Shown here: positions 779-59,610 of the stretch, one piece after another
How the letters are laid out: the number at the start of each line of letters is the position of its first letter
Numbering within the stretch: the stretch's first letter is position 1
DNA from: Serripes groenlandicus
Lineage: Eukaryota > Mollusca > Bivalvia > Cardiida > Cardiidae
Length of the DNA: 64,000 bases
Direction of reading: 5' to 3'
Assembly (NCBI GenBank): GCA_031761405.1
Contig: JASEVX010000011.1
Coordinates: 42,016,411-42,080,410, forward strand
Made by a program: the position numbers and the translations under genes
Notes under the pieces: model-generated
What the model was told of the DNA's origin: nothing
What the model saw: the letters and a program-made list of their open reading frames with translations, nothing else
The model's database searches: none

Positions 779-3700
779 GTATGTCTTAATGTGACTTTGC
801 TTATCTTTTTCATAACGCAAACGACTTAAGTCGTCATAACGCCAGAGAGAATTTTGAAAATAGTGTGGCAAAAATGGAAATCGCATTGCTCTGAATAAAC
901 AGTTTCCCACATTCATCAAATCTGCAGCAGACGACTTTGGGAAACATTTACTCAAGATCTGAAAAATCTCTTGAAATTTGCAGCAGACGAATTTGGGAAA
1001 CATTTACTCAAGATCTGAAAAATCTCTTGAAATGAAGGTATACTTACTAAAAAAAAGGTTGAAAACTTATTAGCAAAAGGAGAAATTGCTCGTTTTGAGC
1101 AATTTCTCCTTTTGTCATAATGTTTTCAATAGTTGTCTGCTGTAGATGCGTCAACATGTGTCTATATATGGGAAAGGGATAAGTAGTCCTTACGAGCTGT
1201 CTCTCCAGAAATCGGAATTGTTTGTCACAAGAAAAATGGAGTGGTCCAATGTTCAACAAAGAAGAGTCGACTTTGTAAAATCGAATGTGTCTTTGCTAAT
1301 CGTTAACCGTATACAGACGGCCTTCGTCATCACTGCGGCAGACGGAAATTTGAAAACAGTTTGGAAAAACGACATTTCAAATGCTAAATGATCAATTTCG
1401 CATTTTCTAAAATATTCGACACTGTTGTTAGGATATATAGAGTATGAACGTTTGTTTCGGTGTACGTTTTCGGACATTTGTTCGCTGAAAGAGCATAAAA
1501 TGTGATCTTTTTACGAGTGACTGGCTGTTTGGTTGAACAAAATATCTATATGGTGCTTTCGAATGGAAATATAGCTCGTGATCTTACATCTAAAAACACA
1601 ATTGATTTCCTCGATATAGTTACTGGCGACGTGTAGATACTGGATAAGGGAGGAGTAAATAGTAAAACCTATTAGATGTTATTATACCTCACGTGACTTT
1701 GTAATGTTAAATTCTCATATACTCATCATGGGCAATTTCTTACTGTTTCATGCTAACAGTACGTTTTTGACCGGTTAACAGTATACTGTTACACGGCAGG
1801 CGCGTGAAAATGTTGGTTATGCACGTGCATGACGTCATTTCAAACAATAACGTCACCTTTTAGATGCGCGTGCGTGCCATGTAACAGTATACTGTTAACC
1901 GGTATATTCATATGTGTGTGTTACATTGTTGTAGATCTACCCATGTTCACCTCCCCTACAAAGGTACAGAATAAATTAAATAAACGTGTAATTTTGTTCG
2001 GTATAATAAAATAAATATTGCATGGCTTCCAGTGTGACAGTACATATTGTCAACATTCGGTAAAATACTGTTAACCTCGGCTTCGCCTCGGGTAACAGTA
2101 TTTTCCTCATGTTGACAATATGTACTGTCACACTGGAAGCCATGCAATATTTATATAATAACACCATTTACTTGAAACCCTTAGTTTATCGGGATGAATC
2201 CACTGGTATTTCTAAACAATCATTTGCAAAAATCATGTTATAAGTCAGTTTGTATTCTCAGATGTATTTGAAGTAAAAGAACTCAATCATAACGATATAA
2301 GGAAAATAAAACCCGTATTCTGCTATTTCGGCCTACAACTACACTCATCATCATTGACTTTACACTATGGCTTTACAGGAATGCAGAGTAATGATTCCCG
2401 AAACAGAAAAACCACAGGAGGCGAAAAGTGTCTGTCCGGGTTAGCCTGCCCGGCATTGCTTAGGCTGATCTGGGTCGATACTTTACGCAGAGTTCATAAA
2501 GTTCGTGTTCTCGTGGAACGGCTTAAATGTCCCAAAATGCAGCTGCGGCGATACTCATCTGCGTAATGTATCGACCAGATCAGCCTGCGCTGTCCGCGCA
2601 GACTGATCCGGCCGACACATTCCGTCTAAGGGGGGATAGATAGAGTAGTAATTCCTGAAACAGAAAATCCACAGGAGGCGAAAAGTGTATATCCGGGTAG
2701 GCCTGTGTGGCATGCTTAGGCTGATCCGGGTCCATACTTTATGCAGAGTTCATAAAGTTTTTTTTTTTTTCGTAACTCGGCGCATATTATTTTCAAAGCA
2801 GTCAGTCTTCCTGTGACGAGGTCTGTTTTGTTTTGTTGTCAACAATGTTGAAGGAAGGAAAAAAAATAGTGTAGTCAGCAAATGCAATAACAATAATCCT
2901 GCAGCATTATATAAATATGGCATGGCTTCCATTGTGACAGTACATATTATTATACCTCACGTGACTTTGTAATGTTAATTTCTCATATACTCATCATGGG
3001 CAATTTCTTACTGTTTCATGCTAACAGTACGTTTTTGACCGGTTAACAGTATACTGTTACATGGCAGGCGCGTGAAAATGTTAGTTATGCACGTGCATGA
3101 CGTCATTTCAAACAATAACGTCACCTTTTAAATGCGCGTGCCATGTAACAGTATACTGTTAACCGGTATATTCATATGTGTGTGTTACATTGTTGTAGAT
3201 CTACCCATGTTCACCTCCCCTACAAAGGTACAGAATAAGTTAAATAAACGTGTAATTTTGTTCGGTATAATAAAATAAATATTGTCAACATGAGGAAAAT
3301 ACTGTTAGCTGAAGCCGAGTATATGTACTGTCACACTGGAAGCCATGCAATATTTATTTTATTATACCGAACAAAATTACACGTTTATTCAATTTATTCT
3401 GTACCTTTGTAGGGGAGGTGAACATGGATAGATCTACTACAATATAACACACACATATGAATATACCGGTTAACAGTATACTGTTACATGGCACGCGCGT
3501 CTAAAAAGTGACGTTATTGTTTGAAATGACGTCATGCACGTGCATAACCAACATTTTAATGCGCGTGCCATGTAACAGTATACTGTTAACCGGTCAAAAA
3601 CGTACTGTTATCATGAGACAGTAAGAAATTGCCCATGATGAGTATATGATAATTTAACATTACAAAAGCACGTGAGGTATAATAAGTATGTATGCTGATC

Positions 3701-6700
3701 CGGGTCGATACTTTACGCAGAGTCCAAAATGTTGGTTTTCTCGTGATTCGGCTCGTGTGGTTAGTTTGCGTACAGTACTAAGCAATAGCAATCTGGGATG
3801 ATGCTCGTGTATATCTGGATCTACAATTGTCGCAATGACCCAAGAGTTGTTTTTTCCTGGAGCAAGATTCATTTATAGTGTGGTGCATAGCGTGACTTGA
3901 GGCCCTGTTCGTATAAGGCGTGTGTTGTCCCTAAGTTGATGGTTAGACTGGGGTCAATCTCATTAAAAGCAGATCTTTTAAACTCGTACACTCGTACTAT
4001 ACCTTTGTAAATCGCCTTTAGATCCGTTGATGCCCTGATACGATGCACTTGATCTTCCATCAATGACACCAATGGGCAACAAACGATAATTTTTCCATAT
4101 GACTGATTTTCAAGGCTCTTTGCAGAAATTATTGTCTGATATGGTAACGATTTCCCGAATCCTGTAGGCAAAACAGCTATGCAATCTCTACCGAACCAAA
4201 TGCAGTCAAATATCTGCTTTTGTTCGGGCTTAAACTGTTGCACTTCGAATTGATGTAAAACATTCTCTATCGTTTCTATAGACGCAGCCATTTTGAAGCA
4301 AAACCGAGCGTTTGTTGTATCGTGCGATTTCATTGGACAAAAAAACGAGCACCGGCTTATGATTATTTAAATGAGTTGGGTCAATTTGAGACGACCTAAT
4401 TTGACATGTAGTCAGATCCAATATAATTCTGATTTTAATGAGATTGGACTGGGGTCAAAGTAACAACGGAGCTCTTGTTATTGTACTTTTCGTTGCGTGG
4501 CAACCGATATCTCGCGAAGCAGAAGGTACCATACAAACCAAGCTATACCTAGTTTAACGTTTAAGACAGAACGAAGACAAAGTATACACATTTCTAAATT
4601 CTCAATAACGAAGTGACACAATTGATACATTAATTCAAATGCATGAATGACCCCCCCCACTTCCGAATTTTGAATTCTATGAAATCTTATTTGAATTAGG
4701 TCACATCACATTTTAGTCAGGTCTACTTACGATATATTGTACCTTGTTAAATATGGACTTTTATTCCATCGTGCTGTATTTTGTGCGTGACAATCTGCAT
4801 GTATATATATACGACAGAAAATGTACAGGTATATATAATACTTAATTTGTATAATGGTCTTTGGTTGAATTGTCATGAAATGCAAAGAAATTGTTCAATC
4901 ACACTTAACCCTTTCCCTCATACGACAATTCTGCAGCAGACGACTTTGAACATATTTTGTCAAAAAATAGAAAATCTCTATAATTGAATGTATCACCTAT
5001 GACTAAAAGTGGTAAACATTGTGGCAAAAGAAGAAATTGCTTGTTTTGAGCAATTTCTTCTTTTGTCACTATGTTTTCAAAAGGCCGTCTGCTGCAGAGG
5101 CGTCAGAAAGCGTCTATATGAGGGTAAGGGTTAACTTATATATATATATATATATATATAATGAGTTTTGATTGTGTGCATAATGTGCTATTACTAATAG
5201 AAATGGTCCCTACTCGTCTAATGCGAGCGTAATTCTGTAATTAAAACATCCGAATATGTATTGTCACATGTCAAAAGTCGGAAAAGAAATTGCTAGGTTG
5301 TCAGATTGATTGTGCAGAGCGCAGTCTTATAAGAATAAGCATACACCATCGAACATTCTGATTAGTGTTTGTAGGGGATTTGTGAAACATATAAATGTTG
5401 ATAGGACTGTGTAGAATCTCAGGCGTCTACACTGTTCTCAAATGCTACGTTGTACTTCATGCATGGGCAAGCTTAACCCTTTCCTCATATAAACGCTTTC
5501 TGACGCCTCTGCAGCAGACGTCTTTTTGAAAACATAGTGACAAAAGAAGAAATGGCACAAAACGTGCAATTTCTCCTTTTGCCACAATGTTTTCCACTTT
5601 TTGTCATAGGTTAACCATTCAATTATGGAGATTTTCTATGTTTTGACAAAATACGTTCAACGTCGTCTGCTGCAGAATTGTCGTATGAGGGAAAGGGTTA
5701 ACATGTCAGCTTTTATTTTAGCTGAAACGCAATCTTTGGTTATTTTTCAGGGACGCACTGGTTGTGGGAAATCATATCCATGTTATACAATGGCAAAGCT
5801 GAAGTTATTCCAAAATCAAAAGTCAAGTATATGCTAGAGGTAAGAATGGCCTCGCATTCAGCTACATGGTGTTCACGAAGCTTAGTCCGAAGAGGTGTAT
5901 AATCAATGTGTCTTATATTAGGTAACATGGACTGTCGCCTTCAAGTGCATGCAAATAATTTGGTCAGGGAACACTTAATGGTTCTATATAAACTGACTGT
6001 TGTAACCCTTTCACGCATACTGCATTTCTGCAGCAGACGGCTTTGAAAAGATCTTAGCAAATCTATGGCATCTCTCTATAAATTGAAGTAGAATTATGAA
6101 ATAAAATTGAAAACATTGTGGCAAAAGGAGACATTGCTCAAAATGGGCAATTTCTCCTGTTGCCGAAATGTGTTTCGTCTGCGACGGACGCGTCTAAATG
6201 CGGTTGCTTGTGGAGAAGGGTTAATTATTCATCACGACCGTTTAATGTACGATGGATATACAGCGGAACCTGTGTATAAAGACCATTTCCACATTTTATA
6301 ATTCAACAAATAGTTTCGGTTTATAATATAAATCTGCATGGGCCAAATAAATGCGATCGCGCTCTGGCGCCTTATATATGTACATGGCTCTCCAAATTGG
6401 ATGAATTCATTTAAAAAGAAGATTGACGTAGTATAAGAGGGGCTACACTTCTAGTTGTGTGTCCTAAGCTACATATGACAGTATAAAATGAATGTGGACA
6501 ATAAAGCATCTAGTGAGACAGTGTGTTAGATAAGAGGGATAAGCAACTCCATCTGTACACCTGTTATCTGGTTAAAATATCGCATGGAGAAATAAAATTG
6601 TCCAAATTTTCACATTTTGTAGCAAATAAAACTTTAATGTCATATTTGGCACATAAAAACAACATACATATTCTGAAAGCTTAAAAATTCAACTAAAGTA

Positions 6701-16740: not shown

Positions 16741-16794
16741 CCTGAATGTCATCAAAGATGTCTCTGCAAAAGTGTGTGAAGTTGGCAGAGCATT

Positions 16795-19700
16795 AGACGT
16801 TAGACATTAGACATTCAAAAAAAATATTCGAATGTCTAATTAGACGTTAGACATTCGATTAGACATTCGCTAATTTTGATTATCGAATGTCTAATTAGAC
16901 ATTAGACATTCGATTAGACATTCAGAAAAATCGCAAATGTTAAATATTGAATGTCTAATTCGACATTAGACATTCGATTAGACATTCGCAAATTACAAGA
17001 TCTATAACCCAAATTCGTCGAAGGTCATTGTACATTCAAAAAACGAATGTCTAATTGGTCAGTTAGACATTAGACATTCGATTAGACATTCGCAAATTAA
17101 GCGATTTAAGTACCAAATTCGTCGGAGGTCATTGTACATGCAAAAAACGAATGTCTAATTGGTCAGTTAGACATTAGACATTCGATTAGACATTCGCAAA
17201 TTAAGGGATTTAGGTACCAAATGTGTCGGAGGTCATTGTACATTCAAAAAACGAATGTCTAATTGGTCAGTTAGACATTAGACATTCGATTAGACATTCG
17301 CGAATTACGATATTTAGGTTCCAAATACGTCGAAGGTCATTGTACATTCAAAAAACGAATGTCTAATTGGTCAGTTAGACATTAGACATTCGATTAGACA
17401 TTCGCAAATTAAGCGATTTAAGTACCAAATTCGTCGGAGGTCATTGTACATGCAAAAAACGAATGTCTAATTGGTAAGTTAGACATTAGACATTCGATTA
17501 GACATTCGCAAATTAAGGGATTTAGGTACCAAATTCGTCGGAGGTCATTGTACATGCAAAAAACGAATGTCTAATTGGTCAGTTAGACATTAGACATTCG
17601 ATTAGACATTCGCGAATTACGATATTTAGGTTCCAAATTCGTCGTAGGTCAACGTACAATCAAAAAACGAATGTCTTATTGGTCAGTTAGACATTAGACA
17701 TTCGATTAGACATTCGCAAATTAAGAGATTTAGGTACCAAATTCGTCGGAGGTCATTGTACGTGCAAAAAGCGAATGTCTATTTGGTCAGTTAGACATTA
17801 GACATTCGATTAGACATTCGCAACTTACTATACTTAGGTTCCAAATTCGTCAGAGATCATTGTACATTCAAAAAACGAATGTCTAATTGGTCAGTTAGAC
17901 ATTAAGACATTCGATTAGACATTCGCAAATTACCAAACTTAGTTTTCAAATTACTCGGAGGTCAGTGTACATTCAAAAAACGAATGTCTAATTGGTCAGT
18001 TAGACATAAGACATTCGATTAGACATTCGCAAATTACTATACTTAGGTTCCAAATTCGTCAGAGATTATTGTACATTCAAAAAACGAATGTCTAATTGGT
18101 CAGTTAGACATTAGACATTCGATTAGACATTCGCAAATTACCAAACTTAGTTTTCAAATTACTCGGAGGTCATTGTACATTAAAAAAACGAATGTCTAAT
18201 TGGTCAGTTAGACATTAGACATTCGATTAGACATTCGCAAATTAAGAGATTTAGGTACAAAATTCGTCGGAGGTCATTGTACGTGCAAAAAACGAATGTC
18301 TAATTGGTCAGTTAGACATTAGACATTCGATTAGACATTCGCAACTTACTATACTTAGTTTCCAAATTCGTCAGAGATCATTGTACATTCAAAAAACGAA
18401 TGTCTAATTGGTCAGTTAGACATTAGACATTCGATTAGACATTCGCAACTTACTATACTTAGGTTCCAAATTCGTCAGAGATCATTGTACATTCAAAAAA
18501 CGAATGTCTAATTGGTCAGTTAGACATTAGACATTCGATTAGACATTCGCAAATTACCAAGCTTAGTTTTCAAATTACTCGGAGGTCATTGTACATTCAA
18601 AAAACGAATGTCTAATTGGTCAGTTAGACATTAGACATTCGATTAGACATTCACAAATTAAGAGATTTAGGTACCAAATTCGTCGGAGGTCATTGTACGT
18701 GCAAAAAACGAATGTCTAATTGGTCAGTTAGACATTAGACATTCGATTAGACATTCGCAAATTAAGGGATTTAGGTACCAAATTCGTCGGAGGTCATTGT
18801 ACATGCAAAAAAACGAATGTCTAATTGGTCAGTTAGACATTAGACATTCGATTAGACATTCGCGAATTACGATATTTAGGTTCCAAATTCGTCGTAGGTC
18901 ATTGTACATTCAAAAAACGAATGTCTAATTGGTCAGTTAGACATTAGACATTCCATTAGACATTCGCAAATTACAAGATCTATAGCTCAAATTCGTCGGA
19001 GGTCATTGTACATTCAAAAAACGAATGTCTAATTGGTCAGTTAGACATTAGACATTCGATTAGACATTCGCAAATTAAGAGATTTAGGTACCAAATTCCT
19101 CGGAAGTCATTTTACATTCAAAACACGAATGTCTAATTGGTCAGTTAGACATTAGACATTCGATTAGACATTCGCAAATTAAAAGATTTAGGTACCAAAT
19201 TCGTCAGAGATCAATGTACATTAAAAAAAACGAATGTCTAATTGGTCAGTTAGACATTAGACATTCGATTAGACATTCGCAAATTACAAGATCTATAACC
19301 CAAATTCGTTGGAGGTCATTGCACATTAAAAAAACGAATGTCTAATTGGTCAGTTAGACATTAGACATTCGATTAGACATTCGCAAATTAAGGGATTTAG
19401 GTACCAAATTCGTCGGAGGTCATTATACATGCAAAAAACGAATGTCTAATTGGTCAGTTAGACATTAGACATTCGATTAGACGTTCGTAAATTAAGAGAT
19501 TTAGGTACCAAATTCATCAGAGATCAATGTACATTAAAAAAACGAATGTCTAATTGGTCAGTTAGACATTAGACATTCGATTAGACATTCGCAAATTACA
19601 AGATCTATAACCCAAATTCGTCGGAGGTCATTGCACATTAAAAAAAGAATGTCTAATTGGTCAGTTAGACATTAGACATTCGATTAGACATTCGCAAATT

Positions 19701-20046
19701 AAGGGATTTAGGTACCAAATTCGTCGGAGGTCATTATACATGCAAAAAACGAATGTCTAATTGGTCAGTTGAACATTAGACATTCGATTAGACATTCGCA
19801 AATTAAGAGATTTAGGTACCAAATTCATCAGAGATCAATGTACATTAAAAAAACGAATGTCTAATTGGTCAGTTAGACATTAGACATTTGATTAGACAAT
19901 CGCAAATTAAGAGATTTATGTACCAAATTCATCAGAGATCAATGTACATTAAAAAAACGAATGTCTAATTGGTCAGTTACACATTAGACATTCGATTAGA
20001 CATTCGCAAATTAAGAGGTTTAGGTACGAAATTTGTCTGAGGTCAT
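16795..20046 (+). repeat. Left satellite arm, ~104-bp monomer, about 29 copies
   Basis: Monomers share ACGAATGTCTAATTGGTCAG and a variable spacer of several types (GAGATTTAGGTACC, TATACTTAGGTTCC, AAGATCTATAACCC, CAAACTTAGTTTTC). A three-unit block near the outer end appears twice here but once in the other arm. Confidence 0.95.
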
Positions 20047-20522
20047 TGTACACGCAAAAAAATCGAGATATCGAAAAGTTCGAGATATCTCGAACTTTCC
20101 AATATCTCGAACTTTCGATGTCTCGATTTTTTTTTTCTCGATATCTCGAACTTTTCGATATCTTGATTATTATTTTTTTCTCGATATCTCGAACTTTCCA
20201 ATATCTCGAACTTTCGATATCTCGAATTTTTCGGTATCTCGAACTTTTCGATATCTCGATTTTTTTTTTTCTCGATATCTCGAACTTTTCGATATCTTGA
20301 TTTTTTTTTTTCCTCGATACCTTGAACTTTCGATATCTCGAATATTTCGGTATCTCGAACTTTTCGATATCTCGAACTTTCTGATAAAAAAAATAATAAT
20401 CGAGATATCGAAAAGTTCGAAATATCGAAAGTTCGAGATATCGAAAAGTTCGAGATATCGAAAAGTTCGAGATACCGAAAAAAATCGAGATATCTCGATT
20501 TTTTTTTTTTTGCGTGTACAAT
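20047..20522. repeat. Core of the giant palindrome: GATATC-rich short units
   Basis: Built of CGATATCTCGAACTTT-type units in both orientations, with A and T runs. Symmetric about roughly 20283, bounded by GTACACGC and GCGTGTAC. Confidence 0.92.
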
Positions 20523-22645
20523 GACCTCAGACAAATTTCGTACCTAAACCTCTTAATTTGCGAATGTCTAATCGAATGTCTAATGTCTAACTGACCAATT
20601 AGACATTCGTTTTTTTAATGTACATTGATCTCTGATGAATTTGGTACATAAATCTCTTAATTTGCGAATGTCTAATCGAATGTCTAATGTCTAACTGACC
20701 CAATTAGACATTCGTTTTTTTAATGTACATTGATCTTTGATGAATTTGGTACCTAAATCTCTTAATTTGCGAATGTCTAATCGAATGTCTAATGTCTAAC
20801 TGACCAATTAGACATTCGTTTTTTTAATGTACATTGATCTCTGATGAATTTGGTACCTAAATCTCTTAATTTGCGAATGTCTAATCGAATGTCTAATGTC
20901 TAACTGACCAATTAGACATTCGTTTTTTGCATGTATAATGACCTCCGACGAACTTGGTACCTAAATCCCTTAATTTGCGAATGTCTAATCGAATGTCTAA
21001 TGTCTAACTGACCAATTAGACATTCGTTTTTTTTAATGTGCAATGACCTCCGACGAATTTGGGTTATAGATCTTGTAATTTGCGAATGTCTAATCGAATG
21101 TCTAATGTCTAACTGACCAATTAGACATTCGGTTTTTTTAATGTACATTGATCTCTGACGAATTTGGTACCTAAATATTTTAATTTGCGAATGTCTAATC
21201 GAATGTCTAATGTCTAACTGACCAATTAGACATTCGTGTTTTGGATGTACAATGACCTCCGACGAATTTCGTACTTAAATCTGTTAATTTGCGAATGTCT
21301 AATCGAATGTCTAATGTCTAACTGACCAATTAGACATTCGTTTTTTGAATGTAAAATGACCTCCGAGGAATTTGGTACCTAAATCTCTTAATTTGCGAAT
21401 GTCTAATCGAATATCTAATGTCTAACTGACCAATTAGACATTCGTTTTTTGAATGTACAATGACCTCCGACGAATTTGGGCTATAGATCTTGTAATTTGC
21501 GAATGTCTAATCGAATGTCTAATGTCTAACTGACCAATTAGACATTCGTTTTTTGAATGTACAATGACCTACGACGAATTTGGAACCTAAATATCGTAAT
21601 TCGCGAATGTCTAATCGAATGTCTAATGTCTAACTGACCAATTAGACATTCGTTTTTTGAATGTACAATGACCTCCGACAAATTTGGGTTATAGATCTTG
21701 TAATTTGCGAATGTCTAATCGAATGTCTAATGTCTAACTGACCAATTAGACATTCGTTTTTTGAATGTACAATGATCTCTGACGAATTTGGAACCTAAGT
21801 ATAGTAAGTTGCGAATGTCTAATCGAATGTCTAATGTCTAATTGACCAATTAGACATTCGTTTTGTGAATGTACAATGATCTCTGACGAATTTGGAACCT
21901 AAGTATAGTAAGTTGCGAATGTCTAATCGAATGTCTAATGTCTAACTGACCAATTAGACATTCGCTTTTTGCACGTACAATGACCTCCGACGAATTTGGT
22001 ACCTAAATCTCTTAATTTGCGAATGTCTAATCGAATGTCTAATGTCTAACTGACCAATTAGACATTCGTTTTTTGATTGTACGTTGACCTACGACGAATT
22101 TGGAACCTAAATATCGTAATTCGCGAATGTCTAATCGAATGTCTAATGTCTAACTGACCAATTAGACATTCGTTTTTTGCATGTACAATGACCTCCGACG
22201 AATTTGGTACCTAAATCCCTTAATTTGCGAATGTCTAATCGAATGTCTAATGTCTAACTGACCAATTAGACATTCGTTTTTTGCATGTACAATGACCTCC
22301 GACGAATTTGGTACTTAAATCGCTTAATTTGCGAATGTCTAATCGAATGTCTAATGTCTAACTGACCAATTAGACATTCGTTTTTTGAATGTACAATGAC
22401 CTTCGACGAATTTGGGTTATAGATCTTGTAATTTGCGAATGTCTAATCGAATGTCTAATGTCGAATTAGACATTCGATATTTAACATTTGCGATTTTTCT
22501 GAATGTCTAATCGAATGTATAATGTTTAATTAGACATTCGATAATCAAAATTAGCGAATGTCTAATCGAATGTCTAACGTCTAATTAGACATTCGAATAT
22601 TTTTTTTGAATGTCTAATGTCTAACGTCTAATGCTCTGCCAACTT
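20523..22645 (-). repeat. Right satellite arm, ~104-bp monomer, about 18 copies
   Basis: Inverted counterpart of the left arm. The variant ATTTATGTACC at about 19914-19925 in the left arm is mirrored by GGTACATAAAT at about 20642-20652. Confidence 0.95.
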
Positions 22646-22656
22646 CACACACTTTT

Positions 22657-22768
22657 ATTTGTTGTCTCTGCAATTATGTTTTATTTGTTGTCTCTGCAAT
22701 TATGTTTTATTTGTTGTCTCTGCAATTATGTTTTATTTGTTGTCTCTGCAATTATGTTTTATTTGTTG
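22657..22768. repeat. 26-bp tandem repeat, four copies
   Basis: Unit contains TGTCTCTGCAATTATG. One copy of the unit exists at 16268-16293, and its first half abuts the left end of the giant palindrome at about 16758-16767. Confidence 0.9.
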
Positions 22769-27546: not shown

Positions 27547-28878
27547 CTAGCCGGAAACTGGCACATTCCGCCCGTTCTCATCAAAGTTATACAGTTTCAT
27601 TTCAACCGCTTTTGATGTCGTCTCGTCCGATTGCGGGCTATGGTGTCCGCTCGGGACATCAGAGTGCAGGGTTCGTATGCCACTCGTGACGCTCTGGCGG
27701 CGACTATTTTTGTCCGAAGACTTGCTTCCCGTTCGGAAAAGTGCCGAGCATGCATCGAAAATACACGGAAGCATCGATTTAAGTCCCTGGCGAAATTTCC
27801 GGTTCATTATTAAGTAGACCCAGAAGTTTGCATGAAACGACAAAACCATCAGTACCTCGTAGGTGCACACGAACGCCCGGTTATGTTTAATATCAGGCAT
27901 TGCTTTTCTGGCATGGTGGAGAGATACGTTGAGTACGAGATAAATTGAGTACGGTATTTCTGGTACGAGAAACAGAATAACAATCACTATTACAATCAAC
28001 GATATACGACGGTTTTCAGCATTTCTTCGTCTCATGTTGGCCTCATTAGAAATCATATTAGCATGAGTCATTTTCTCCGTTGCCTTACGCAGCTTTATCA
28101 CCATGATAACAGTAAATGAAACGAGAAGAAGACACGGGATGAAATGGGCGAGGTAAAACGTGACCCATATATAAACACATCCACCCTCACAGGGCTCCTT
28201 TAAGTGCCACCCACATTCGTCCTGCCAGGTTTTCTCCTCGGTGAGTTGGTAAATATGTAACACTGGTGCGCTGATAAATACGAAACCAATCATAATAAGC
28301 GTCTTTGTAATCGAGAACATGGACTGGGCCCTGAATGGACAGGAGACGGAGATGAGTCGCTGGAAGCCGAGTACCAGCGTCAACCAAACGGAAATTGTAT
28401 GAAAAGCACGCGTCAAGAACAGCTTCGTCACCATGAAATACTCGCACCAAAACCGTGACAGCTGTAAATGAAGGCCGCTCCGCTGTCTGTACGCGTGTAT
28501 GTACGCTGGCAGGGTGACCACTCCAGTCAGGGTATCCGACATCGCTATTGCGATTAAGATTATGTTTGTCGACGTTCGCATGTTCTTACCCATCAGTACC
28601 AAGATCACAAGACCATTAGTGATAGTTGTTAGTATTACAAGTAACGGCCAAACATATAAATAAACAAATTCTTCAAATGGGAACACGCGGTGATAAAACG
28701 TTTCATAAGCGGGATCGTCACCATAAAACTCATAATCATAATCACTATAAGGATCGTAAGTGTCATGACCAGATGTGTTCGTCGAATGGTTTGTGCCAGT
28801 ATCATTTATACCGTGATTGTCATCGCCATAAGCATAAGCTTGATAACCGTCATCTCCATAATACGTTGACGAAGCCAT
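27547..28878 (-). CDS. Rhodopsin-like GPCR, neuropeptide (myosuppressin/sex-peptide receptor)-like, intronless
   Basis: 443 residues, ATG at 28878, TAG at 27547-27549. A seven-helix receptor: TM1 about 72-97 (with TNGL, Asn88), TM2 about 104-126 (SD, Asp114), Cys145 at the top of TM3, TM5 about 236-262, TM6 about 291-315 (FLVPEIPY), TM7 about 336-358. The usual DRY at the end of TM3 is replaced by FQR (172-174) and the NPxxY of TM7 by NFWVY (351-355). FHTISVWLT at the start of TM3's second half and the QR motif recall the invertebrate FMRFamide-like/myosuppressin/sex-peptide receptors, which also lack a standard DRY; that assignment is inference. The long N-terminus (1-70) is acidic and Tyr-rich with N-glycosylation sites near Asn25, Asn30 and Asn34. 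The Ser/Thr-rich tail suits arrestin control. Ligand unknown. Confidence 0.92.
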   Translation of the reverse strand: MASSTYYGDDGYQAYAYGDDNHGINDTGTNHSTNTSGHDTYDPYSDYDYEFYGDDPAYETFYHRVFPFEEFVYLYVWPLLVILTTITNGLVILVLMGKNMRTSTNIILIAIAMSDTLTGVVTLPAYIHAYRQRSGLHLQLSRFWCEYFMVTKLFLTRAFHTISVWLTLVLGFQRLISVSCPFRAQSMFSITKTLIMIGFVFISAPVLHIYQLTEEKTWQDECGWHLKEPCEGGCVYIWVTFYLAHFIPCLLLVSFTVIMVIKLRKATEKMTHANMISNEANMRRRNAENRRISLIVIVIVILFLVPEIPYSIYLVLNVSLHHARKAMPDIKHNRAFVCTYEVLMVLSFHANFWVYLIMNRKFRQGLKSMLPCIFDACSALFRTGSKSSDKNSRRQSVTSGIRTLHSDVPSGHHSPQSDETTSKAVEMKLYNFDENGRNVPVSG

Positions 28879-28899
28879 TTCTGCGTATTATTAAACTAT

Positions 28900-34544: not shown

Positions 34545-35375
34545 ATCGAGGTAGATGGTGACACAATGTACGTGACGTAGATGGTGACACAATGTACGTG
34601 ACGTAAATAGTGACACAATGTACGTCACGTGTATAGTGACACACTGTCTGGACGTAAATGGCCATACATGGTGACACTATGTACGTGACGTAGATGATGA
34701 CACTCTGTACGAGACGTAGATGGTGACACAATGTAGGTGACGTAAATGGTGACACACTGTACGTGGGTGACACAATTTACGTGACGTAGATGATGGCACA
34801 TGTCTGGTGGTAAAATTGTGACACATTGTACGTAGAGAAGATAGTGACACAGTGTACGTGACGTTTAAAGTGACACACTGTACTTGACGTAGATAGTGAC
34901 ACAATGTACGTGGCGTAGATAGTGCCACAAACTCTTGACGTACATGGTGACACATTGAAGCAAGTGATACAATGTTTTTGATGTAGATAGTGACACACTG
35001 TACGTGACGTATATAGTGACACAATGTACCTGAGGTAGATCGTGACACACTGTTCGTGGCGTAGATAGTAACACATTGCACGTTACGTATATAGAGACAC
35101 ACTGTGCGTGACGTAGATATTGACACACTATACGTGACGTATATAGTGACACAATGTATGTGACGTAGATAGTGACACACTGTACGTGACGTATATAGTG
35201 ACACAATGTATGTGACGTAGATAGTGACATAATGTACTTGACGTATATAGTGACATATTGTACGTGATGTAGATAGGGACACACTGTACGTGACGTAGAA
35301 AGTGACACAATGTACCTGAGGTAGATCGTGACACACTGTCTGGACGTAAATGGTGACATATTGTAGGTGACATCA
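34545..35375. repeat. 26-bp minisatellite, about 30 copies
   Basis: Unit of the type GTACGTGACGTAGATAGTGA followed by CACAAT. Long open frames on the - strand are a by-product of the repeat having no stops in several frames. Confidence 0.95.
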
Positions 35376-37799: not shown

Positions 37800-38466
37800 A
37801 TTGTGAGGAGTGTATAGAGTTTCAATTTGCAGACTATGTTATAAAGAGTTTTAATTCGCAGACTTTGTAACATAGAGGTTTAATTCTCAGATTATGTACT
37901 GTCGAGTTTTAATTCGCAGATTATTTACTGTAGAGTTTTAATTCACAGACTATGTAGTATAGAATTTTAATTCGCAGACTTTGTAATATAGAGTTTTAAT
38001 TCACAGACTATGTAATATAGAGTTTTAATTCGCAGACTTTGTATTATAGAGTTTTAATTCACAGACTATGTTATATAGAGTTTTAATTCACAGACTTTGT
38101 AATATAGAGTTTTAATTCGCAGACTTTGTAATATTGAGTTTTAATTCGCAGATTATGTACTGTCGAGTTTTAATTCGCAGACTATGTACTGTCGAGTTTT
38201 AATTCGCAGACTATGTACTGTCGAGTTTTAATTCGCAGACTTTGTACTGTCGAGTTTTAATTCGCAGACTATGTACTGTCGAGTTTTAATTCGCAGACTA
38301 TGTACTGTCGAGTTTTAATTCGCAGACTATGTACTGTCGAGTTTTAATTCGCAGACTATGTACTGTAGAGTTTGAATTCGCAGACTATGTACTGTAGAGT
38401 TTTAATTCGCAGACTATGTACTGTCGAGTTTTAATTCGCAGACTATTTACTGTAGAGTTTTAATTC
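37800..38466. repeat. 29-bp minisatellite, about 23 copies
   Basis: Unit of the type GAGTTTTAATTCGCAGACTA with a TGTACTGTC spacer. The 3' copies are almost identical; the 5' copies are diverged. Confidence 0.95.
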
Positions 38467-42359: not shown

Positions 42360-44330
42360 ACATGAGCCCTGATGTTTTCCAACGTATATAACGCATTAAA
42401 AGATACAGCGACAAACATTACAGGACATTCTGCTTAAGTTATGTCTCTAATTACACAGGTTCCAGTTGATTGCTTTCTTCATTGTTGAAATGTATTCTGG
42501 GGCACGACCATGTATGAAATTATCATACAGATACATACTGGCGAACAGACCACAAATGAATATATGGTATGAAAATCGGCCCTGATATTTGTTATTGACA
42601 TGCTCAGGTTCTAGTTGAAGGCTTTCTTCATGAAATTTAATCTGAGGTGCACCTATGTATACATATTATCGCAAATACACACTGGTGTACTGGTGAACGA
42701 ATCCCAAATGCATAAAAGATGAGCCCTGATGTTTGTCGACTTATAAAACGCAAAGACATATGCGTTGACAAACATCGCAGCACATTCTACCTCAATTTTA
42801 TCTATTCATACACAGGTTTAAATTGATGGCTTTCTGCATGGAGAAAATGTATTCTGAAGCTCGTCCACGCATACAATTATCACATATAAACACGTACAGT
42901 TAAACAGACCCCAAATGCATGTCTTGCATGAAAATAGCCCTGGTGTCAAACGTATAAAATGTACCAAAATATACGTGGACAAACATTACAGCACATTCTA
43001 CTTCAGTTGAATCTCTATAAACACAGGTTCTAGTTGATGGCTTCCTCTATGGAATACTGTTTTCAGAAGTGACTCCACGCAATATATTATCACACCAATA
43101 CACGTTCTGACGAACATACCCAAAGTGCCTATATATTGCATGAAAATGAGCCCTGATATTTTTCAACGTATATAAGGCATCAAAATACACGTTGACAACC
43201 ATCCCGGCTAATTCTTCCTTCGGTTGAATCTCTTCATACACAGGTTCTTGTTAATTGTTTTCTGCATTGGTGTATTTTGGGGCGCGTCCACGCATTTATT
43301 TATCACATATATATACATATAGATACTTGTGAATGGATCACTATTCAATCTCTCCTTACACAGGTTCTGGTTGATGACTTTCTGCATCGGGGAGATGTAT
43401 TGTAAGGCGCGTACATGTATGAAATTATCACATATACTGACATCCTGGTGAACAGATCCCACATACATATCATGCATGAAAATGATCCCTGATGTTTATC
43501 AAAGTATAAAACTCTCCAAAGATATACGTTGACAAACATCACAGGACATTTTACTTAAGTTCAATCTGAAATACACAGGTTCTAGTTGATGGCTTCCTGC
43601 ATGAGGGAAATGTATTCTAAGGCACGTCCACGTATGAAATTATCATAGTTATACACATCCTGGTGAACAGTCCCTAAATACATATCATGCATGAAAATGA
43701 CACCTGATGGTTGTCAACGTATGAAACTCACCAAAATATACGTTGACAAACATCACAGGAGATTCTACTTAAGTTCAATCTCTCCTTACACAGGTTCTAG
43801 TTGATGGCTTTCTGCAAAGTGGATATGTATTGTAGGGCGCGTACACGTATACAAATTATCACATTTACACATACCGTTGAACAGACCCTAAATACATATC
43901 ATGCATGAAAATGACCCCTGATGGTTGTCAACGTATAAAACTCACCAAAATATACGTTGACAAACATCACAGGAGATTCTACTTAAGTTCAATCTCTCAT
44001 TACACAGGTTCTAGTTGATGGCTTTCTGTATGAGGGAGATGTGCCATAGGGCGCGTACACGTATGTAATAATCACATATACACACATACTGGTGAAATGA
44101 CAACACAGGAGATTCTATTTAAGTTCAATCTTTCCATACACAGGTTCTAGTTGAAGGCTTTCTTCATGAGGGAAATGTATTCTGAGGCACGTACACGTAT
44201 GAAACTTTTACATATACACACATACTGGTGAACAGACCCTAAATGCATATCATGCATGACAATGACCCCTGTTGATTGTTATCGTATAAAACTCACCAAA
44301 AGGTGATGTTTGTCATTTGTGTACTTTCAA
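42360..44330. repeat. ~210-bp satellite-like array, about ten diverged units
   Basis: Units begin near ACACAGGTTCTAGTTGATGG and contain ACGTTGACAAACATCACAGG. Starts occur at about 42458, 42604, 42811, 43019, 43229, 43358, 43573, 43788, 44003 and 44139. Most spacings are 207-215 bp; three shorter ones (129-146) are deletion forms. Confidence 0.9.
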
Positions 44331-44896: not shown

Positions 44897-45324
44897 TTTT
44901 ATGCGATGTCGTCAGATATCGTCAGAACCAATATGCGTTCAACGAAGTATTTCGGTCTGATTTTAATTAGATTGAGGTGGTTATAAGACGGAACATTCCC
45001 CGGAAATACCGGATATTGAATATAGATCAAACGAGCGTGCTTCCGACAGATAAAGAAAAGCGGCGATTGGGGATAATGGTTGCACTGCAAACAGCAAATC
45101 CTTTGTATACGCACGCACCACCCTCTCACTATAGTTGTTACTGTCCGTTTCCATGTACGGGCAAATCCAGATGTAACGTAACACTAGGATTTCATTTCAA
45201 ATTCGAAAATGAGTTATTGCTATTAAATAAATAAACATAATACACAATAATCAATTTTATTGTAATATAAGGCCTACAGCTCAGAATACGATTGAACTGG
45301 TCATTATTTCTATTCTATTATCAT

Positions 45325-46275
45325 GTTATTATGATTTACAACAGATACATACATACACATGTTATTATGATTTACAACAGATACATACATACACCTGTTA
45401 TTCTGATTTACAATACATACATACATACACATGTTATTATGATTTACAACAGATACATACACACTCACATGTTATTATGATTTACAATACATACATACAT
45501 ACACATGTTATTATGATTTACAATACATACATACATACATACACATGTTATTATGATTTACAATAGATACATACACATGTTATTATGATTTACAATAGAT
45601 ACATACATACACACATGTCCTTATGATTTACAATAGATACATACATACACACATGTCATTATGATTTACAATAGATACATACATACACACATGTCATTAT
45701 GATTTACAATAGATACATACATACACACATGTCATTATGATTTACAATAGATACATACATACACATGTTATTATGATTTACAATAGATACATACATACAC
45801 ACATGTCATTATGATTTACAATAGATACATACATACACACATGTCATTATGATTTACAATAGATACATACATACACATGTTATTATGATTTACAATAGAT
45901 ACATACATACACACATGTCATTATGATTTTTACAATATATACCTACACACACATGTTATTGTGATTTACAATAGATACATACATACACATGTCATTATGA
46001 TTTACAATAGATACATACATACACACCTGTTATTATGATTTACAACAGATACATACACACCCACATGTTATTATGATTTACAATACATACATACATACAC
46101 ATGTCATTATGATTTACAATAGATACATACATACACACATGTCATTATGATTTACAATAGATACATACATACACACATGTCATTATGATTTTTACAATAT
46201 ATACCTACACACACATGTTATTGTGATTTACAATAGACACATACACATGTCATTATGATTTACAATAGATACATA
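45325..46275. repeat. ~38-bp minisatellite, about 25 copies
   Basis: Unit contains TTATGATTTACAATAGATAC plus a variable ATAC tetranucleotide run. Copy B has a single unit at about 55088-55120, so the array grew after the duplication or shrank in B. Confidence 0.95.
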
Positions 46276-46428
46276 CTCATGTTTAACATTGACTATAGCA
46301 CAGTATAACGTTCCGGTATAATATTGTTATCAAATGACTAAGATATATAATGTATCAAATGACTAAGATATATAATGTATCCAACAACATTTATAAAATA
46401 AATTGTTCCCTCTCGTAAAATGCCTTTT

Positions 46429-48489: not shown

Positions 48490-48869
48490 ACCCTTTCAAA
48501 AACTAACAACAAATCTGCAGCAGATGACTTTGAAAACATGTAGGCAAAAACGGGGAAAATCTATAAAAATTGAATATTATTATCGATAAGAGTTTAAAAC
48601 ATTGTGCCAAAAGGAGAAACTGCTCCTTATATAAGTAATTTCTACTTGTGTTACTATGGTTTCAAAAGTCGTCCGCTGCGCATCTCTGCAGGCGGGAAAA
48701 AGTAGAAAACATCTCTATAAATGAGAGACGAATAATTAAATGAAGTTGAAAACATTGTGGCAAAAGGAAAAATTGCCCATGATGAGCAATTTATCTTTTC
48801 GTCACACTGCTTTTAAAATTCGTATGTTGTAGATACCTCATAAAGAGTCTGTATGTGGGAAAGGGTTAA
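48490..48869. repeat. Two CCCTTTCCC MITEs fused by a deletion
   Basis: Copy B keeps both elements apart (57190-57400 and 57456-57683). Copy A lacks about 110-130 bp spanning their junction. Confidence 0.8.
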
Positions 48870-49121
48870 TGACAAACATCAGACTTCATACATTGGCCTG
48901 TACTTGGAACATAATTCTCATCAACTTATTTCTATACAGGGTTTGTTTATTGATTGTAAATCAATGTAATGTTGACTGAACATTGCGAAATTAGCACAGC
49001 AGCAAGGATACAAAGTGTAAATAACATTAATAGATCAGGAGATACGGGATAAACATAGAATACAGTAAACACTTTGTTTTCGTCGACGACACTTCGCCTG
49101 TCCATAATCAATGCGATATAT

Positions 49122-49127
49122 TTTATT
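49122..49127 (-). terminator. Candidate polyadenylation signal of the copy A GPCR
   Basis: AATAAA on the - strand about 14 bp after the stop codon, conserved in copy B at 57935-57940. The very short implied 3' UTR makes this tentative. Confidence 0.3.
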
Positions 49128-49140
49128 AATATGCCTTTCT

Positions 49141-50484
49141 TTAGATATGACAGACTGGTATTTTATTCTCAACTTGAGTGTCAGCTGGCGAGTCCTCAAT
49201 GGTGTTACTCTTTGTGGTGTTCATGATACACAGTGAGGTTTTGGTACCTTTTCTTTGGAAGTTACTTCCCAATGACCTTGACCTTGCCCTTGATGTCGAG
49301 TCACTTGCACTTTCGCGTCGGTCGGGGATTCCCTTATATAGGTTACACAGTTTGAAGCATTTTAAACCGAAGATTAGTTGTTTGACACCTTGCCTGAACT
49401 TCTTATTCATGACTATATAGATCCAGAAGTTGGCATGAAAACTAAGAACGAGTAAAACTTCGTAAGCGCTCCTGAATCGCCGTCTGGTGATTAAGGTCAA
49501 CGGTGTAACACCGACCGCCTGGGCAAGGTGCTTTGATACTTCAACCAATCGGTAAATTCCGTACATCATTTCCGGGATAAGGAATACAATAACAATGGCA
49601 AGAACAACTGATAGTACCCGCTTGTTTTCCGCCTCCCGATTTTTAGCAGCACGTACGCTCAGCGACCTCTTTATTTCTTTCGAAGAAAACAGGCTTTTCA
49701 TCATCAATGCGGTCATCGTAAGCAATAAAACACATGGTATAAAATGCATCAGGTGGAATACCGACCACATGTAGTAGCAGCCATATTTACAATGAATTTC
49801 TAAATTCCAAACACATTGGTATTCATATTTAGCGTTTATAGAATTATAAACGCTTTTCAAGTGAGCTCCTACAGCGTGATATAGGTGGGCCAATGGAGAT
49901 AATCCAACAATGACTGCGATCATATAGCCGGTTTTCTTAATTCTGAAGTAGCGATTTGCCTTGAACGGATATCTGACCAGCACCATTCTTTGAAATGCTA
50001 GAAGCACGGTCAGCCAAATTGACATCGTATGAAATCCTCTGGACAGAAAGTACCTCAAAAACATAAAAGCTTTGCATAACGCGGCGGTCATTTCAACTCG
50101 GTCGAAAACTCCCGAGTTCCCTTCGTTGGCGTAGATGTAACCCATAGGGATGGTAACCAGCCCAGTGAGGGCGTCACTGCATGCAATAACAGTGAGAATC
50201 AAATTGGTGGACGTACGCATCTTCTTGTGGATGAGCACCAGGATGACCAGGATGTTGGCGATGGTTGTTAGACATATAAGCGGAGTCCAGAAGTAAAGAA
50301 ACAGTGGCCTTTCAAAGTTGAACGTCTTGTAGTAGTATATCTCGTGTGTTAGATCGTCGTCGTATCCGTCGTAGTAGTATTCGTCGTAGTAGTATCCGTC
50401 GTACGACGAGTCGTTCACTCCGTGATCAACATCGGGATCAACCGGTTCCTTGGAGTCGTTATAAGGTGCATGCGACATATTCAT
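49141..50484 (-). CDS. Rhodopsin-like GPCR, tandem copy A, intronless
   Basis: 447 residues, ATG at 50484, TAA at 49141-49143. Seven membrane segments: TM1 about 62-86, TM2 about 94-117, TM3 about 137-168 (Cys137, ending AFQR 163-166 in place of DRY), TM4 about 185-203, TM5 about 238-264, TM6 about 289-313 (FLIPEMMYGIY), TM7 about 338-360 with NFWIY (352-356) in place of NPxxY. The second extracellular loop (about 204-238) holds Cys224, the likely disulfide partner of Cys137. The N-terminus (1-58) is rich in Asp and Tyr (YYYDEYYYDGYDDD), a setting in which Tyr can be sulfated. It shares FHTxSxWLT, the N(R/A)EAEN(K/R)R block before TM6 and SFHANFW with the receptor at 27547, so all three belong to one family. 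Probably a neuropeptide-type or chemosensory receptor; ligand unknown. Confidence 0.93.
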   Translation of the reverse strand: MNMSHAPYNDSKEPVDPDVDHGVNDSSYDGYYYDEYYYDGYDDDLTHEIYYYKTFNFERPLFLYFWTPLICLTTIANILVILVLIHKKMRTSTNLILTVIACSDALTGLVTIPMGYIYANEGNSGVFDRVEMTAALCKAFMFLRYFLSRGFHTMSIWLTVLLAFQRMVLVRYPFKANRYFRIKKTGYMIAVIVGLSPLAHLYHAVGAHLKSVYNSINAKYEYQCVWNLEIHCKYGCYYMWSVFHLMHFIPCVLLLTMTALMMKSLFSSKEIKRSLSVRAAKNREAENKRVLSVVLAIVIVFLIPEMMYGIYRLVEVSKHLAQAVGVTPLTLITRRRFRSAYEVLLVLSFHANFWIYIVMNKKFRQGVKQLIFGLKCFKLCNLYKGIPDRRESASDSTSRARSRSLGSNFQRKGTKTSLCIMNTTKSNTIEDSPADTQVENKIPVCHI

Positions 50485-50589
50485 GTATTTGTTTCCTGCT
50501 TTTTAGAACTAATATACCTAGAAAAAATATACAACACAGAGGATTATTCTCCGAGCAAAAGCAATGAAAAAATATAAAGTTCTTTGTAA

Positions 50590-50770
50590 ACATATGATTG
50601 ATTGATTGTTTGGTGTTTTACGCCCGCTTTCAATAATATTTCAGTTATATCACAGCGTTGCCTTGGTAAATTACAAGTACTAATGGTCCATTTATCCTGA
50701 CACCAGCCCTGTCAGTCGTAATGCTAATTAAGCAACCCTGAACGCCAAGGTTGGAGCCATTACTATCATT
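50590..50770 (-). repeat. tRNA-derived SINE, family B, shared with copy B
   Basis: TTTGGTGTTTTACGCCCGC tail just upstream of the GPCR; counterpart at 59397-59575, so it predates the duplication. Confidence 0.8.
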
Positions 50771-50810
50771 GTTTTTGTAAATAAGCGTTGAGTAGAGATT
50801 TCGTGCGGGT

Positions 50811-51040
50811 TTTAACATTTTTCCACATATATACGTTTTCTGAGGCCTCTGCACCAGACGACCTTTGAAAACATTGAGGCAAAATGAAAAATTGCTAATA
50901 ATGAGCAAAATCTCCTTTTGCCACAACGTTTTCAAATATATTTAATAGCTTAATATCCATCTATGGAGTTGTTTATGCTTTTGACATGGTGGTTTCAAAG
51001 ACGTCTTCTGTATATTTACTGTATGTGGGAAATGGTTAAG
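50811..51040. repeat. CCCTTTCCC MITE, diverged, shared with copy B
   Basis: Left end lost; ends TATGTGGGAAATGGTTAA. Counterpart at 59611-59829. Confidence 0.75.
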
Positions 51041-51149
51041 ATCAAATCCTTAAACATTTATCTGCATAACAAGGTCCGCTTTCATAGTTATTTATGGTAC
51101 ACTGACCTTGTGATTTAGCTGAAAATACCTACATGAATTCAGCCTGTTT

Positions 51150-51427
51150 CGAGAGACCAATCGATAGCTCGAGACAATTACTGTAAATCCAGGGGTTGTG
51201 AGTTCGAACCCAACCTCGGCCAACATTCTTTCCGAAGTTTGACAAAAGGCATTGTGACAAGTGTCATTCGTTTTTAATGGAATTAGGGTCTATGTAAAAT
51301 AGCAGCCAGTTACTTGGAAATGAGTACTGGTATGAGAAAGCGAGGAAACACATGAGTAGGTGAGTAGGTGAACTGGCCGCCGTTGAAAATTGTTGAAAAC
51401 GGGGTTAAACCCCAACCAATCAATCGA
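51150..51427 (+). repeat. tRNA-derived SINE, family A, shared with copy B
   Basis: CCAGGGGTTGTGAGTTCGAA head and AAACCCCAACCAATCAATC tail. Counterpart 59960-60242. Confidence 0.82.
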
Positions 51428-51943
51428 GACGGTCCCATTCGACTTTTCGAGATATTGCGAGTTCAGCGTAGTAAAGCTAAACAGGAATCAACACCATCGG
51501 ATGTTTAAATTTCTTTAAGACACACAATGCTGATTTTAAGTGTTTGCAATAATCTCAATATTGCCATTGGTACTGAAAGAGTTTGTCTGCAATGTTTTCA
51601 AAAACCATCCGCGATGTCGTCTGTCTCCGGGATAGAATAAAATGAATACAATTGTTACATATATACGGAAAAGGTGTTTCCGTCGATAACAGTTTGAATG
51701 ACGGATTTCCTTACTATGCAGGGATAACACTTCATCTGAATGACCCTATGCGAAACAACTTTAGCTGAATATCATTTTGCGTACAGTTGCTACTTTTTTG
51801 CATGTACCCGTCCATAAGCTAGATTTAATGATACATCATATTTGAACCGCGTACCACGAAAAGGGATCTTAGTACATCTGCAAACAGCCAAGACCATACG
51901 GGTAATCTCGCCGGGGTCATCAATGTCCCAATCTGACCATATT

Positions 51944-52700: not shown

Positions 52701-52924
52701 TCCACGCAAAGTATTATCACACTTCTATTGGTTGAAAGTAATCAATTGTGCTGATCCCTGAGAAAAATATTGAGCGTTTCAATATTCGTTACACCAAAAA
52801 TGACAATGGGACATAGTATCATGAAGTTATCAATATTGTCACCATTCACAAAAGTATAATCCAATTTACTAAAGCGAAAACAATTCTGAACAGAGTATGA
52901 GGAGTTTTAACCCAGATTGGGTTT

Positions 52925-53880
52925 TTTGTATGTCTATCGATTTTTCACTACGTGTCATCTATTAAACATGTACCAAACAACGTACCATGAACAGTATAAG
53001 CACGGTTTTTTCCTAGGACTATCAAGGACTTGAACCCCCTTCCTCCGGACTTTGCGATGATTACGTCTGTAGACTGATTCAAGTCCCGTCTGTATTGATA
53101 CACAGCCTAAACCAACACAGATTGTTCTTGTTTTAATTTTTATTTTTAATTTGTAAATATGCCTAATTAGTTGTTACTACCATTTTAATGGTTTCACCTG
53201 CCTGCGATGCACAAAGCCCAAAGTAACAAAAGTAGAAGTAAAAGGTAGCTGGTCTCTAAATCATCAAAGTTTGGATGAGAGCGCTTTGTAACGTTACTGT
53301 ATGGAAAATAATAGTTCCGTTCTTAGCAGCACGTGTAAAAGATCTGAGTGCAATATCAAAAAGGAACAATATCAAACTATACAATAAGACATTTTATTGT
53401 ATCCTTCCATGTTCCAGTTGGTAAAAGGATTCAATATCAGTTAATATTGCACGGGTTGATATTGCACGCATTGATAGTGCACTCGGATCTTTTTCACGTA
53501 ATGCTAAGGACGGAACTATGTCCATACAGTAACGTTACTAAGCGCTCTCATCCAACCGTTCATGCTTTAGAGACCAGCTAACTTCTCCTTCTACTTTGTT
53601 ATTGTCAAGGTTTAGTGCATCGCAGGCAAGTGAAGCCATCAAAATGGTTAAAACAACTAATTAGGCATATTTACAAATATAAATGAAATAAACATCTGTG
53701 TTGTTAAGGCCGTGTATTAATGTAGACGGGACTTGAATCAGTTTACAGATCTGCGCAAGGTTCGGCTTTCTGATAGTCCTAGGAAAAAGCTGTGCTTATA
53801 CGGTTCGTAGTACATTGTTTTGTACATCTTTTATAGATGACACGTAGTGAAAAATCAATAGACATACACAAAACTTATAG
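52925..53880. repeat. Large inner palindrome of the P foldback element, copy A
   Basis: GTATGTCTATCGATTTTTCA at the left is mirrored by TGAAAAATCAATAGACATAC at the right; arms of about 450 bp carry CGGGACTTGAATCAG, AATTAGGCATATTTACAAAT and ACGTTACTGTATGGA with their complements. Counterpart 62490-63412. Confidence 0.88.
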
Positions 53881-57189: not shown

Positions 57190-57683
57190 TATTTCACCCT
57201 TTCAAAACTAACAACAAACCTACAGCAGAAGACTTTGAAAACATGTAGGCAAAAAAAGAGGAAAATCTATAAACATTGAAGAGTTTACAACATTGTGGCA
57301 AAAGGAGAAACTGCTCCTTATAAGTAATTTCTACTTTTGTTACTATGTTTTCAAAAGTCGCCCGCTGTGCAAGCATAGGAGCGCATCTCTGCAGGTGGGA
57401 TAACGTTTTATAACAGTTATTAACTTTACAAAACTGTAGATGGTACTTTTATTGTTTAACCCTTTCCCTCATACAATAAATCTGCAGCAGACGACTTTGA
57501 AAATATATTGACAAAAGTAGGAAACATCTCTATAAATGAGAGAACAATGATAAAATAACGTTGAAAACATTGTGGCAAAAGGTAAAATTGCCCATGATAA
57601 GCAATTAATCTTTTCGTCACACCACTTTAAAAGTCGTCTGTTGTAGAGACCTCAGAAAAAGTCTGTATGTGGGAAAGGGTTAA
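57190..57683. repeat. Two CCCTTTCCC/TTAA MITE copies, intact arrangement
   Basis: 57190-57400 (diverged) and 57456-57683 (TTAA at both ends). Confidence 0.82.
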
Positions 57684-58009
57684 TGACAAACATCAGACTT
57701 CATATATTGGCCTGTACTTGGAACATTATTCTTATCATCTTATTTTTATACAGGGTTTGTTTATTGATTGCAAATCAATATAATGTTGACTGAACATTGC
57801 GAAATTAGCACAGCAGCAAGGATACAAAGTGTAAATAACATTAATGGATCAGGAGATACAGGATAAACATAGAATACAGTAAACACTTTGTATTCGTCGA
57901 CGACCCTTCGCCTGTCCATAATCTATGCGATATCTTTTATTAATATGCCTTTCTTTAGATATGACAGACTGGCATTTTATTCTCAACTTCAGTGTCAGCT
58001 GGCGAGTCC

Positions 58010-59281: not shown

Positions 59282-59396
59282 GTATTTGTTTCCGGCTTTT
59301 TAGAACTAATATACCTAGGAAAAATATACAACGCAGAGGATTATTCTCCGAGCAAAAGCACTGAAAAAATATAAAGTTCTTTGTAAACATATGATT

Positions 59397-59575: not shown

Positions 59576-59610
59576 TAAATAAGCGTTGAGTAGAGATTTC
59601 GTGCGGGTTT

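Follow-up and report, generated by a model that had tools for sequence, protein, structure and literature searches.

Is the 5.9-kb palindrome of satellite-like repeats found in a bivalve genome a mobile element, and if so, of which kind? The structure lies in a 64,000-nucleotide stretch of Serripes groenlandicus (GenBank assembly GCA_031761405.1, contig JASEVX010000011.1, positions 42,016,411 to 42,080,410 of the forward strand), which is referred to as the window throughout. With a probability of roughly 0.9, the palindrome belongs to a family of apparently non-coding, non-autonomous foldback transposons with terminal inverted repeats (TIRs), the ends of which have grown into 104-bp satellite-like arrays; it is also well supported that one such foldback entered an element of the HINE type, a non-autonomous Helentron. 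The classification as a non-autonomous foldback TIR transposon follows from the combination of common ends, 9-bp target-site duplications (TSDs), and further palindromic copies elsewhere in the genome.

In the window, Tandem Repeats Finder detected 104-bp arrays at positions 16962–20061 (29.8 copies) and 20506–22462 (18.8 copies), which are separated by units with periods of 17 to 99 bp, and an inverted-repeat scan paired 16768–17904 with 21520–22656 at 95% over 1137 nt. Segmentation resolved the left arm (16770–20006, plus strand) into the tip, two short outer units of 55 and 64 bp, and 29 full monomers (16989–20006), and the right arm (20561–22654, minus strand) into 18 full monomers (20561–22435), the same two short outer units, and the tip. 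The terminal tip of 22 bp (AAGTGTGTGAAGTTGGCAGAGC) occupies 16770–16791 on the plus strand and recurs at 22633–22654 on the minus strand; when 20 bp of it were searched with up to three mismatches, the palindrome ends were the only two sites in the window (0/100 shuffles). The core (20059–20499) consists of 17-bp GATATC-type units (TCGATATCTCGAACTT) on both strands, with 22 matches between 20059 and 20478 compared to 0.6 expected, and the region 20040–20540 folds better than 100 of 100 shuffles. The motif TTAGACATTCG occurs 144 times in the window, every time inside the palindrome and about three times per monomer. Rfam and tRNA scans of the window gave no hits. A sequence-only reading had described two ordered inverted arrays of about 29 and 18 monomers with matching ends around a GATATC core, and this description was borne out by the repeat, inverted-repeat, and segmentation analyses; its end positions, 16768 and 22656, had to be corrected to 16770 and 22654 by comparison with other copies, whose TSDs fix the termini. 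That reading also suggested that the palindrome might extrude as a very large cruciform.

Both arms carry variant monomers in matching sequence when counted from the outer end. When the short units are counted, there are 19 cognate pairs with a mean identity of 98.1%, and the order score is 1.28; none of 1000 shuffles scored above 0.79, and the reversed order scored 0.28. Since the short outer units are counted in, the corresponding all-pairs mean of 85% is too low a yardstick, and the fairer test is restricted to full monomers: here the 17 cognate pairs averaged 98.2% versus 90.7% across all pairs. Their order scored 1.13, a value that 0 of 200 shuffles attained (maximum 0.80 in a set of 100 shuffles and 0.84 in the 200). 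The left arm owes its extra length to internal duplications or to losses from the right arm, an example being units 25–27, which resemble units 28–30.

A search of the whole genome assembly (1.759 Gb in 1739 contigs) with a 36-bp end sequence returned 1022 matches, whereas the reversed-pattern control returned none (exact matches only were counted). A 101-bp end query yielded 1136 candidates, and of these the best 40 were scored, all of them being identical (100%) over the 101 bp, which partly reflects the selection of the best candidates. The many identical tips suggest recent activity, and the foldback is a high-copy and apparently young family. From 100 of the 1022 end sites, which represent the first 159 Mb of contig C1, pairs were drawn, and 14 convergent pairs at most 8 kb apart were found among the sites listed. 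A perfect 9-bp direct repeat is located directly outside the AAGTG...CACTT ends in all 14 cases for which this was computed (13 convergent pairs and the copy L020). The copy L021 had been considered as one lacking a TSD, but this was ruled out because its true left end lies 1.3 kb further outward, and once that end is used the 9-bp sequence GTTTCGCTA stands on both sides. Perfect 9-bp TSDs are therefore present in 15 of 15 palindromic copies besides the window copy, and these copies are 0.4 to about 8.5 kb long. The 15 TSDs that were tabulated (14 copies and the window) have no obvious consensus, and the palindromic copies are dispersed over different sites. L021 and L029 have a common target repeat, in two copies of which they are inserted one base apart; these near-identical sites suggest that the element either prefers such a site or often meets this repeat as a target.

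The recurrence of these ends in at least one other copy had been set beforehand as a test of whether the palindrome could be a molluscan foldback element, and the 1022 exact ends together with the 15 further palindromic copies answer it positively, just as the many copies with the same ends and their TSDs support the foldback assignment itself. The long TIRs with internal tandem repeats are those of a foldback element, and the 9-bp TSDs at fixed ends in all 15 copies fall into the range of 8–10 bp that characterizes this group. Exact tip and monomer patterns had no matches in viral and prokaryote contig collections, as expected for a bivalve sequence. When a translated stretch of the array was used as protein query, a single match was obtained, P0052 (73 aa, encoded on a 2917-bp contig from ENA). 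It can be read as a pair of diverged monomers, so that related sequence is present on another public contig.

The window copy itself is flanked directly on the left by TCTCTGCAA (16761–16769, plus strand), and the same 9-mer recurs 10 bp past the right end (22665–22673, plus strand), within an 11-bp direct repeat. This shift is explained by a 26-bp minisatellite (22653–22768, plus strand; 4.5 copies, 100% alike), which begins at the right junction and includes the right TCTCTGCAA. The simplest reading is that an ordinary 9-bp duplication arose first and that this junction was then, presumably, altered by tandem duplication together with a small deletion. That the window copy has no TSD was considered and ruled out, as TCTCTGCAA is present past the right end and was missed when only the adjoining bases were compared.

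The structure of the family was compared across 16 palindromic copies, including the one in the window. Their measured lengths range from 0.4 to 7.9 kb, with L021 reaching about 8.5 kb if its outer end is included, and each arm holds 0–40 full monomers. The GATATC core is present in nine copies and lacking in seven, and a pre-core stretch of about 200 bp flanks the core of L020 and L021 on either side but is missing from both sides in the window copy. In six of the 15 testable copies (window, L069, L071, L072, L073, and L076) the arm order within the copy exceeded all 200 shuffles; it was equalled by 1–2 of 200 shuffles in three copies (L020, L021, and L079) and by 6–20 in a further six (L033, L070, L074, L075, L077, and L078). 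An arm often has its nearest counterpart in a different copy, not in the opposite arm of its own palindrome. At a threshold of at least 97%, for example, 17 of the 18 right-arm monomers of the window copy match the right arm of L076, compared to 15 of 18 matching its own left arm. Arms have thus been exchanged between copies or have drifted. Because the arm order is common to other copies, it is mostly inherited within a subfamily and therefore does not prove that the window copy folded back recently; for the same reason, a fresh one-step inverted duplication was ruled out as the needed origin of this copy.

The 16 copies contain 82 open reading frames of at least 80 aa, of which 78, including the longest with 280 aa, are made of repeats, and the remaining four (in L021 and L076; 89–100 aa) consist of other, repetitive-looking sequence. 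In agreement with the sequence-only reading, no transposase-like frame was seen among these 82 frames, the four non-repeat frames having been inspected without a family search. The length of the TSD corresponds to the 9 bp of Mutator-like elements (MULEs) and differs, in 15 of 15 copies, from the 7 bp of Galileo and P elements. A transposase of another type, such as that of Merlin, which makes TSDs of 8–9 bp, or a Galileo/P-type enzyme with an altered TSD, is a possible but clearly less probable mover. In its favor, the 9-bp TSD is the sole pointer to Mutator, and foldback structures occur outside this superfamily, e.g., in Galileo (PMC4079207; PMC3688188). It is opposed by the combination of a 9-bp TSD and repeat-filled TIRs, which match those of Tm1, a Mutator-type foldback element (PMC3169594), and by the statement that most foldbacks are Mutator elements (PMC4079207). 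Both the length of the duplication and the similarity to Tm1, the closest match, make a Mutator-like transposase probable, and we infer a Mutator-like superfamily for the bivalve foldback.

Tm1 of root-knot nematodes resembles the bivalve element by description in its TIRs of variable length composed of internal tandem repeats, its mostly 9-bp TSDs, and its non-autonomous copies, but its repeats measure 13–15 bp and the two sizes seen are 1080 and 2593 bp, compared to 104 bp and up to about 8.5 kb, and its transposase is known whereas none was found for the bivalve foldback (PMC3169594). Tetris of Drosophila virilis is likewise a non-coding foldback with satellite-like TIR repeats and TSDs of 8–10 bp; its TIR-220 repeats have spread as satellite arrays, whereas the bivalve arm has spread inside a HINE (PMC4079207). 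Galileo and FB of Drosophila also have long, internally repetitive TIRs (PMC3688188), and Galileo differs by its P-type transposase. According to the mechanism proposed here, a transposase acting in trans, probably Mutator-like, would pair both tips and mobilize the element through a cut-and-paste reaction. The TTAGACATTCG copies in the tip region and in the monomers probably multiply putative transposase-binding sites, which is plausible because the TIR repeats of Galileo hold extra binding sites for its transposase (PMC3688188). Tandem duplication would make the arrays longer and loss of units would make them shorter, and arms were probably swapped between copies.

The same end also occurs in a second carrier. 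Among 20 long loci fetched from the best 40 of the 1136 matches to the 101-bp end, 18 represent a different element, designated A, which comprises, in this order, a hairpin, about 400 bp of own sequence, the foldback tip, the array, the pre-core, the core, at least about 0.2 kb of own sequence, and a right end. Its 5′ hairpin has the form GACGCCGCG-6 bp-CGCGGCGTC, and at its right end CGCGGCGTC is followed by TTTGATGC-TCT-GCATCAAA, which lies about 10 bp short of the 3′ end. The 5′ hairpin was found in 14 of the 18 loci (with a variant of one base in L013) and is absent from L009 despite enough sequence, while three loci were read too short to include it; the 3′ CGCGGCGTC and hairpin are present in all 18 (with a one-base variant in L027). 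Element A thus has the sub-terminal inverted repeats, the adjacent inverted repeat, and the 3′ palindrome near the terminus that are typical of HINEs. The base next to the element is a T in each of the 14 5′ flanks that could be read and in all 18 3′ flanks, as in the insertion between T and T known from HINEs, with the reservation that the ends of element A could move by one T, and no TSD was seen by eye in the flanks read. By these sequence features, element A matches the definition of a HINE, a non-autonomous Helentron (PMC4067079; PMC7492417). In locus L018, the right end (at about 3934) runs directly into sequence that resembles the beginning of a further HINE left module but lacks the hairpin, an arrangement like that of Helitrons copied head to tail.

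Element A joins the foldback tip exactly and carries the left arm and core of the foldback. This exact junction has 421 matches in the genome, compared to none in the control, and among 16 further unpaired ends sampled, ten have HINE flanks and six have other flanks. The core of element A contains units in both orientations, some of them past the palindrome center, and therefore fits an origin from a palindrome. Cg_HINE of the Pacific oyster is similar in its sub-terminal inverted repeats with a neighboring inverted repeat, its 3′ palindrome, its T-T insertion without a TSD seen, and its central satellite-like array, but differs in that the exact tip junction of element A allows its central array to be traced to an arm of another, TIR-type transposon (PMC7492417).

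The mean p-distance of the tip region is 0.009 among HINEs (18 copies), 0.063 among foldbacks (32 arms, rearranged L040 included), and 0.049 between the two groups, and in midpoint-rooted trees the HINE copies lie within the foldback diversity. The pre-core of L020 is 93.5–94.0% identical to that of the HINE copies L009–L011 over 217 aligned bp, among the matches listed. As the HINE copies are near-uniform and nested among the foldback arms, the array probably moved from the foldback to the HINE. In a single event, one foldback would have entered a HINE; after the loss of its right arm, the left arm and core would have been multiplied by the HINE as its central repeats. It is quite likely that a satellite-like array can be handed from one transposition system to a second, unrelated one and that a foldback array, inserted or captured once, became the central repeats of a HINE and was thereby spread hundreds of times. 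The opposite derivation, in which a rolling-circle or template-switch product folded a HINE array back and the foldback form arose second, is improbable: although both elements have tip, array, and core in common and the HINE is abundant (421 exact junctions), the foldback copies are delimited by ends of their own, carry 9-bp TSDs, and lie mostly in unrelated flanking sequence, the HINE copies are near-uniform and placed among the foldback arms by midpoint rooting, and their core units in both orientations are what an origin from a palindrome predicts.

Several observations weigh against the foldback interpretation and the proposed transfer to the HINE. The foldback-to-HINE direction leans on midpoint rooting, which is pulled by the long branch L040_l, and the rearranged L040 raises the foldback mean p-distance of 0.063. 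The HINE cluster was read without a support value of its own, and it has strays, namely L024 in the tip tree (1 of 18) and L023 in the pre-core tree. The latter tree is weak because several foldbacks, including the window copy, lack this stretch and non-homologous sequence was aligned, and the pre-core of L012 matches that of L020 over 51 bp only. As to the palindrome itself, the TSD of the window copy is not adjacent to its right end, not every copy has a within-copy arm order above its shuffles, and neither a transposase nor an autonomous partner was found in the inspection, which covered the frames of the 16 copies.

An assembly artefact, in which one array was misjoined to its own reverse complement, is very improbable for the window copy. 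Long palindromes are hard to assemble, and the cognate monomers are 98% alike on average, but the arms are unequal (29 versus 18 monomers), both flanks carry TCTCTGCAA, and the perfect 9-bp TSDs of the 15 other palindromic copies refute this explanation for the family as a whole. Least credible is ordinary satellite DNA inverted by chance, since, although the 104-bp monomers are tandem and free arrays without tips would have escaped a tip-based retrieval in which all arrays read (18 HINE and 16 palindromic) lie inside elements, the arrays are short (0–40 full monomers per arm in 16 copies) and are bounded by fixed transposon ends and TSDs, which refutes it for the window copy.

The presence of the same array in two carriers with exact junctions makes the origin of the central satellite-like repeats of Helentrons testable. 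If the proposed transfer is true, the central satellite repeats that HINEs carry, and that are a large part of oyster satellitomes, would have a concrete source. With its numerous naturally occurring palindromes of different lengths, the foldback family can also be used to study how genomes tolerate long inverted arms and how such arms are exchanged. Neither a bivalve foldback nor a foldback arm within a Helentron is reported in the titles and abstract openings of the open-licence papers listed by the literature searches, which is weak evidence of novelty; in the available excerpts of papers on bivalve satellites, including PMC7492417, the mentions of foldbacks seen are citations of, or one sentence on, Tetris of Drosophila.

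Additional repeats and coding sequences are located elsewhere in the window. A shorter palindrome of 752 bp (2941–3692), 90% identical to its own reverse complement and with partial relatives at 1679–2047, does not contain TTAGACATTCG. A further pair of palindromic repeats, related to each other and each about 0.9 kb long (52921–53874 and 62486–63407; 78% and 73% self-complementary), has similar ends around TGTATGTCTATCGATTTTTCACTACGTGTCATCTAT. Four more tandem arrays are found at 34551–35371 (units of 26/52 bp), 37815–38466 (29 bp), 43344–44232 (214/136 bp), and 45322–46276 (38 bp), and a fragment of a DEAD-box helicase (PF00270) lies on the minus strand at 3869–4366. A 3-kb direct duplication (48698–51749 and 57513–60564; 94%) carries two closely similar, uninterrupted frames for rhodopsin-type G protein-coupled receptors (49141–50502 and 58010–59299). 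A third G protein-coupled receptor frame (27547–28887), by whose homology the host is a bivalve and most likely a heterodont, had 51 protein matches, of which the named ones are all from bivalves (Mercenaria, Mya, Ruditapes, Mactra, Dreissena, and Sinanodonta) and most others are nameless.

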